From the NCBI GenBank assembly GCA_013359335.1, contig JABWBZ010000016.1, positions 1-35,513 of the forward strand: a stretch of 35,513 nt of DNA, in the 5' to 3' direction. The position numbers and the translations under genes were made by a program. Origin of the DNA: a bacterium. GTDB lineage: Bacteria > CLD3 > SB21. Of this stretch, positions 24,017-25,085 are shown one piece after another. Under the pieces are notes generated by a model. It was not told where the DNA came from, did not search any database, and saw only the letters and a program-made list of their open reading frames with translations. The first letter of the stretch is position 1. Every line of letters starts with the position of its first letter.

Positions 24017-24304
24017 TTAATAGCGTTTTGAAAAAGAACGATCCGTTCTTTTTTCTTGAGGTTTGGCAACATTAACAACCAAATTGCGGTTTTGCCAATT
24101 GTAGTTGTTGAACATCTCGATGGCTTTTTTTGCATCTTCTTCGGTTGCCATTTCGACGAAACCAAAACCTTTAGAACGGCCGGACATTTTGTCCGTGATG
24201 ATTTTGGCCGATACGACCGAACCTGCTTGTGTAAAAAGGTCCGTAAGGCTTTGCTCATCGCTATTGTACGACAAGTTGCCAACGTATAGTTTCTTTGAAT
24301 CCAT
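24017..24304 (-). CDS. RNA-binding protein with single RRM
   Basis: RNP2 KLYVGNLSY and RNP1 KGFGFVEM; aggaga RBS before ATG at 24304. Confidence 0.95.
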   Translation of the reverse strand: MDSKKLYVGNLSYNSDEQSLTDLFTQAGSVVSAKIITDKMSGRSKGFGFVEMATEEDAKKAIEMFNNYNWQNRNLVVNVAKPQEKRTDRSFSKRY

Positions 24305-24344
24305 GGAAAGTCTCCTGAAAGTGTTAAACATGGGATATAAAAAA

Positions 24345-24376
24345 AAATCTCAAAGCGCCCATACACTTTGAGATTT
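24345..24376 (-). promoter_or_regulatory. Intrinsic-terminator-like hairpin inside the RRM leader (putative attenuator)
   Basis: 11-bp perfect stem AAATCTCAAAG/CTTTGAGATTT with 10-nt loop; on the minus strand the stem runs into eight consecutive T; located between promoter-like sequence and the ATG. Confidence 0.7.
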
Positions 24377-24472
24377 GTAAAACTTAAATCTGTTTATTCT
24401 TAAGACCGGATCGTCGACAAGAAAAACTGAGATGAAAAGAAATCAAAACCTATGGTGCTCACTGAGCACTAC

Positions 24473-24501
24473 ACTATACATCAAATTTATCCCGTTGTCA
24501 A
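24473..24501 (-). promoter_or_regulatory. Sigma70-type promoter for RRM gene
   Basis: Minus strand TTGACA (24501-24496), 17-bp spacer, TATAGT (24478-24473). Confidence 0.75.
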
Positions 24502-24701: not shown

Positions 24702-25085
24702 ATGGGCGATCGATTCAAAGAATTCACCGAGTTTCGGCATAAAATGAACGAGCGCATTCTCGCGCAGGACAACAAAGTCATCAAACGGTTTTTCTCAATC
24801 GACACCCTGACCTATCAGGAAGGCGCTCTCAACGTCAAGACGAAAGAACTGCTGGGATTGGTTGCGTCGCTGGTATTGCGATGCGACGATTGCATTGCTT
24901 ACCATATCAATAAATGCAAAGAAGCCGGCGTCGCTCGCGATGAAATGTTCGAGGCAATGAGCGTCGGGCTGGTCGTCGGCGGCTCGATCGTGATTCCGCA
25001 TCTGCGGCGAGCCGTGGCATTTCTGGATGAAATCGAAACGATGGAAACTAACGGAAGCTCACAGGAACTCTCAGAAAAAAATTAA
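24702..25085 (+). CDS. Carboxymuconolactone decarboxylase family protein (AhpD-like)
   Basis: KTKELLGLVASLVLRCDDCIAYHINKCKEAGVARDEMFEAMSVGLVVGGSIVIPHLRRAVAFL with CxxC..H; caaggag RBS. Confidence 0.93.
   Translation: MGDRFKEFTEFRHKMNERILAQDNKVIKRFFSIDTLTYQEGALNVKTKELLGLVASLVLRCDDCIAYHINKCKEAGVARDEMFEAMSVGLVVGGSIVIPHLRRAVAFLDEIETMETNGSSQELSEKN

Follow-up and report, generated by a model that had tools for sequence, protein, structure and literature searches.

The RRM gene and its promoter

The window analysed here, a stretch of 35,513 nucleotides of bacterial DNA, encodes on its minus strand a protein of 95 amino acids with one RNA recognition motif (RRM; PF00076, E=8.6e-22) at positions 24017..24304. 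The start codon ATG at 24304 is preceded by the Shine-Dalgarno sequence AGGAG (24312..24316, minus strand), which was read from the sequence. A second RRM gene, a paralogue with 70% identity, is present in the same genome, and RRM genes were also found in six other species of the family. To our knowledge, small RRM proteins are widespread among bacteria, and little is known about their regulation. The neighbouring gene at 24702-25085, which belongs to the CMD family, is oriented divergently from the RRM gene. A divergent neighbour, being either a CMD gene, a tRNA, or another gene, is found in every homologous locus in which it is visible.

A sigma-70-type promoter, TTGACA-N17-TATAGT, is located on the minus strand at 24473..24501 (TTGACA at 24501-24496, TATAGT at 24478-24473), as had been reported in an initial annotation of this DNA. 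It matches the consensus at 11 of 12 positions and is the best of six candidates within 5 kb, for which shuffled sequences lead to an expectation of 7.9 candidates, mostly with 9/12 matches. Transcription is predicted to start at about 24466 on the minus strand, and the leader between promoter and RRM gene has a length of ~160 nt. TTGACA-type promoters are also found upstream of homologous leaders. The short hairpin GTGCTC-AGT-GAGCAC (24455..24469, minus strand), which had likewise been noticed before, is located at the 5' end predicted for the transcript, and most homologous leaders have a similar GCTC..GAG hairpin close to their 5' end. The minus strand also contains AGATTT (24391-24386), as annotated, and AAGTTT (24380..24385), the only 6-mer upstream of the terminator hairpin that is common to all eight homologous leaders described below. 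The folding energy of the whole leader (z = -1.5) was uninformative.

A terminator-type hairpin in the leader

In the region from the promoter of the RRM gene to the start codon, as is characteristic of an attenuator, the minus strand encodes the hairpin AAATCTCAAAGTG-TATGGG-CGCTTTGAGATTT (24345..24376), which contains GC pairs and is directly followed by a U-tract (24339..24344, minus strand), as is characteristic of an intrinsic terminator. The 11-bp stem consisting of AAATCTCAAAG (24376-24366) and CTTTGAGATTT (24355-24345) had been recognized correctly in the initial annotation. It extends inward by a U-G and a G-C pair to 13 bp, leaving the loop UAUGGG. The run of T residues past the stem is also present, but it comprises six T instead of the eight that had been counted, or nine if three paired ones are included. 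The folding energy of the hairpin is -16.7 kcal/mol at 37 °C, and its 3' end is located 40 nt upstream of the RRM gene.

As the neighbouring gene is divergent, this terminator can act only on transcripts of the RRM gene, and a role as terminator of an upstream gene is ruled out. Terminator-like sites are frequent in the surrounding 5 kb (20 sites compared with 6.8 expected), so that a terminator by itself is not rare at this place; it is the conservation of the hairpin, and not the presence of a terminator, that exceeds chance. The genome contains four other GTGNATGGGCGC sites, none of which is followed by the 3' arm of the stem and a U-tract.

Conservation and covariation in related leaders

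The same hairpin with a U-tract was found in eight RRM leaders from six of the family's seven genomes, including the leader of the paralogue in the window's genome. Apart from compensated stem changes, its common form is CUCAAAGUG-N(1-4)-AUGGG-CGCUUUGAG, and the U-tract is retained in all homologues. The copy in genome G005 is interrupted by a contig end, and the leader of G001a has a weaker lower stem (-12.6 kcal/mol). The initial annotation had made its proposal depend on conservation of the hairpin in orthologous leaders, which these genomes confirm, and had suggested a covariation analysis. In the resulting alignment, which has only six distinct rows, three stem pairs are changed on both sides (A-U to G-C, U-A to C-G, and C-G to U-A), and 95% of the cells are paired compared with 22-56% with slid partners. 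While the lower stem covaries, the upper stem and the loop region GUG-N-AUGGG-CGC are invariant, which is unusual for a plain terminator. The annotated leader terminator is borne out by the divergent neighbour together with the conserved hairpin and U-tract and their compensatory changes. That the element is real and conserved can be stated with high confidence; that transcription is terminated at the leader hairpin is predicted with moderate confidence.

Nine genomes of the phylum were searched with the loop pattern combined with CCCAT, a downstream motif discussed below. The eight matches obtained were all located in RRM leaders, compared with one match for the reversed control. With a covariance model applied to 290 genomes, strong matches were confined to these RRM leaders. 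Weaker matches of this model (R1, the window-type leader) elsewhere were ordinary 3' terminators or chance hits, as far as inspected. The known occurrences of the element belong to one family and represent about five independent lineages. As the RRM protein tree was unresolved, it provides no date for a gain or loss of the element.

Three RRM genes of the 'a' type (G003a, G004a, G005a; L113, L115, L114) do not have the hairpin leader. They are located directly behind a 5S-rRNA-like sequence and its terminator and are possibly co-expressed with the rRNA operon. In G008, which belongs to the same class, the RRM leader (L089 1260-1500) contains a different terminator-like hairpin, CAAAAGG-UUUUG-CCUUUUG with a U-tract, 46 nt upstream of the RRM gene.

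Complementarity between the hairpin loop and the downstream region

The loop motif ATGGG (24358..24362, minus strand) is invariant in the eight leaders, and its exact complement CCCAT, the 3' arm of a predicted pseudoknot, is located downstream of the terminator at 24330..24334 (minus strand). This match was missed in the earlier reading of the sequence. CCCAT is the only 5-mer other than poly-T that is common to all eight downstream regions, with shuffle probabilities of 0.003-0.03 per leader, and its distance from the GAG of the 3' arm of the stem varies between 11 and 16 nt. For the duplex of loop and CCCAU, energies of -6.2 to -6.8 kcal/mol were calculated. Complementarity is retained in eight of eight leaders with five invariant core pairs; a sixth pair (U-G, A-U, or U-A) is present in seven of them and fails in G003b. 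As the core pairs never vary, the case for the pseudoknot rests mainly on complementarity. The loop and CCCAU are predicted to form an H-type pseudoknot, which would exist only in read-through mRNA and would use the U-tract as a long loop. Due to its position downstream of the terminator, CCCAU can have no influence on the termination decision itself.

Search for an antiterminator

In the initial annotation, AGAUUU had been suggested to pair with AAAUCU in the 5' arm of the terminator, resulting in a mutually exclusive alternative helix. This helix reaches only -0.8 kcal/mol at 37 °C compared with the energy of the terminator hairpin given above, and the paralogous leaders do not have it. As it is too weak and not conserved, it was rejected as an antiterminator. 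A longer helix such as CCAUA-G-GUUUUGA could serve the same purpose: when the G000a leader is folded before the 3' arm exists, CCAUA.GUUUUGA is predicted to pair with the 5' arm and the loop (duplex -11.9 kcal/mol), and folding at this stage results in a competing helix in each leader. However, none of these upstream helices exceeds what is obtained with shuffled upstream sequence, and their positions differ among the leaders. In a systematic duplex search of the homologous leaders, in which every upstream segment was considered as a partner of the 5' arm and the loop, the best duplexes likewise had shuffle fractions of 0.07-0.95. With no conserved mutually exclusive antiterminator found in these leaders, an attenuator that depends on an upstream antiterminator, be it AGAUUU/AAAUCU or a longer helix, appears unlikely. 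A mechanism based on a protein only would not need a conserved antiterminator, and if read-through is regulated, control by a protein or by kinetics would be likelier than control by a conserved RNA antiterminator.

Comparison with known regulatory RNAs

With respect to gene context, the closest named motif is Chlorobi-RRM (RF01697), a structured RNA candidate associated with bacterial RRM genes. In the table of Weinberg et al. (2010, PMC2864571), it is classed as a likely cis-regulator. The RF01697 model had no match in 193 genomes in all, including the window's genome and eight relatives from its phylum. Screening the window against Rfam yielded nothing at gathering score, and there was also no match to the riboswitch and RNA thermometer families of Rfam 15 at this score. 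The leader RNA has apparently not been described before. It is similar to the protein-controlled TRAP and Bgl/Sac attenuators, where the leader of the regulated gene also contains a terminator, but it differs from them in that no conserved antiterminator was found.

A second leader family at RRM genes of other phyla

Among 84 RRM loci from other phyla, which were picked by protein similarity, 15 upstream regions contain a terminator, compared with 3.3 in shuffled sequences and one on the opposite strand. Many of these loci, from Nitrospirota and Deltaproteobacteria/Desulfuromonadales assemblies, have another leader in common, R2, which consists of AACUUUUAAAGUU, a short spacer, and CCUCAGAG-ACUUUAAAAG-CUCUGAGG-UUUUUU. 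The R2 model matched 41 of 296 genomes of one phylum, and the range of the family comprises the phylum of G131 as well as MAGs of Nitrospirota and Deltaproteobacteria/Desulfuromonadales (loci L159-L188, L028, L050, L061, L063, L066, L068, L070, L075, L081). The terminator stem of R2 covaries strongly. Its upstream segment is complementary to the loop, and only 0-5 nt are located between the two 3' arms, which should make the complete helices sterically incompatible. The upstream helix P1, the columns of which were part of the search model, is complementary in most members, and its covariation was not above column shuffles.

R2 resembles the window's leader in that a strong intrinsic terminator is located close before RRM genes and its loop is complementary to a flanking segment. 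It differs in its sequence, in the upstream position of the loop partner, and in its additional occurrence before CspA, DEAD-box, and S21 genes. The R2 model had no match in G000-G008, including the window's leader, and R2 is a different RNA; the R2 leaders that were checked had no Rfam match. Downstream of R2, the 30 fetched loci encode an RRM protein in 22 cases, a CspA-type protein in five, and a DEAD-box helicase and ribosomal protein S21 in one case each, while no gene of these four kinds was recognised in one locus (L166). RRM, CspA, DEAD-box, and S21 genes form a typical cold-shock gene set. Leader terminators before RRM genes therefore recur and are associated with cold-shock genes, and the position of R2 before these genes points to control by cold or RNA chaperones. 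On the basis of sequence alone, a leader shared by these four kinds of genes would delineate a cold-shock regulon.

Proposed control of RRM expression

The interpretation of the window's element as a conserved attenuator-type leader is well supported, and this cis-acting RNA probably limits the expression of the small RRM protein by transcription attenuation. RNA polymerase would start at about 24466, and the hairpin at 24376-24345 with its U-tract would end part of the transcripts, releasing a leader RNA of ~120 nt. In transcripts passing this site, the loop AUGGG would dock on CCCAU (24334-24330). The resulting H-type pseudoknot would end 13 nt before the Shine-Dalgarno sequence and could tune translation or stability. 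The read-through fraction would be set by a protein acting on the hairpin, and the likely control variable would be the demand for RNA chaperones, i.e. the level of RRM protein and/or cold. The role of the pseudoknot and the identity of the regulator are proposed with lower confidence.

Each of the family's seven genomes (G000-G006) contains small RRM genes, and no cold-shock protein with a CSD domain (PF00313) was found in any of them using two different queries and positive controls. RRM proteins are thus candidates for the role of CspA in this family. The DEAD-box genes of the family do not have such a leader. In E. coli, proteins of the CspA family are antiterminators, RNA chaperones that prevent the formation of intrinsic terminators (review: PMC4347634), and RbpB, an RRM protein of Bacteroides, binds its own mRNA (PMC11697453). 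Given these two precedents, autoregulation by the RRM protein, which the initial annotation had put forward together with temperature control, is plausible by analogy. Temperature control of the leader is also plausible, and both ideas gain indirect support from the lack of CSD proteins in the family and from the cold-shock-type gene set located behind the analogous R2 leader. The proposed control is similar to that by the CspA family with respect to RNA chaperones preventing intrinsic termination; it differs in that there is no sequence kinship and in that an RRM protein would act in a family without CSD proteins. In a lineage without a CspA-type protein, the conserved combination of a leader terminator and a loop-tail pair makes autoregulation accessible to direct testing. 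Tentatively, RRM leader terminators may have evolved independently in several phyla within a cold-shock/RNA-chaperone regulon, with the hairpin in the window's phylum doubling as a pseudoknot with the downstream motif and acting first on transcription and afterwards on the translation of a CspA substitute.

Alternative interpretations

The loop and CCCAU are the best-conserved parts of the element, and any action of CCCAU is limited to read-through RNA. This would fit a hairpin whose main function in the mRNA is structural or in protein binding, with a pseudoknot that controls translation or stability and with weak and incidental termination in vivo. However, the U-tract directly follows the stem in eight of eight leaders, which fits a terminator better than a mere pseudoknot linker, and this interpretation is therefore considered rather doubtful. 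The leader with its own promoter, 5' hairpin, and terminator could also give rise to a stand-alone small RNA of ~120 nt, with read-through into the RRM gene being secondary. A convincing match to an Rfam small RNA was not obtained, as the candidate FopS (RF04319) reached 15.4 bits compared with a gathering cut-off of 56 and was rejected. Furthermore, the leader upstream of the hairpin is poorly conserved apart from the single common 6-mer, and a promoter scan of the minus strand listed no further promoter from the terminator to the start of the gene. A small RNA as the main product is thus very unlikely.

Even less probable than a stand-alone small RNA is a short upstream ORF starting at the AUG of the loop (MGALRFF...) that would couple translation to the hairpin. 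The leaders contain the frame AUG-GGC-GCU-UUG/UUA, which remains open into the RRM ORF in G001a, G004b, and G006b, but it lacks a Shine-Dalgarno sequence and ends at differing places in the remaining leaders, and the changes track base pairing and not codons (UUU to CUU in G002b). The three leaders in which this frame (MGALRFF / MGALSFF) runs into the RRM gene are located at L112 1807-2151, L116 2753-3115, and L117 2857-3219.
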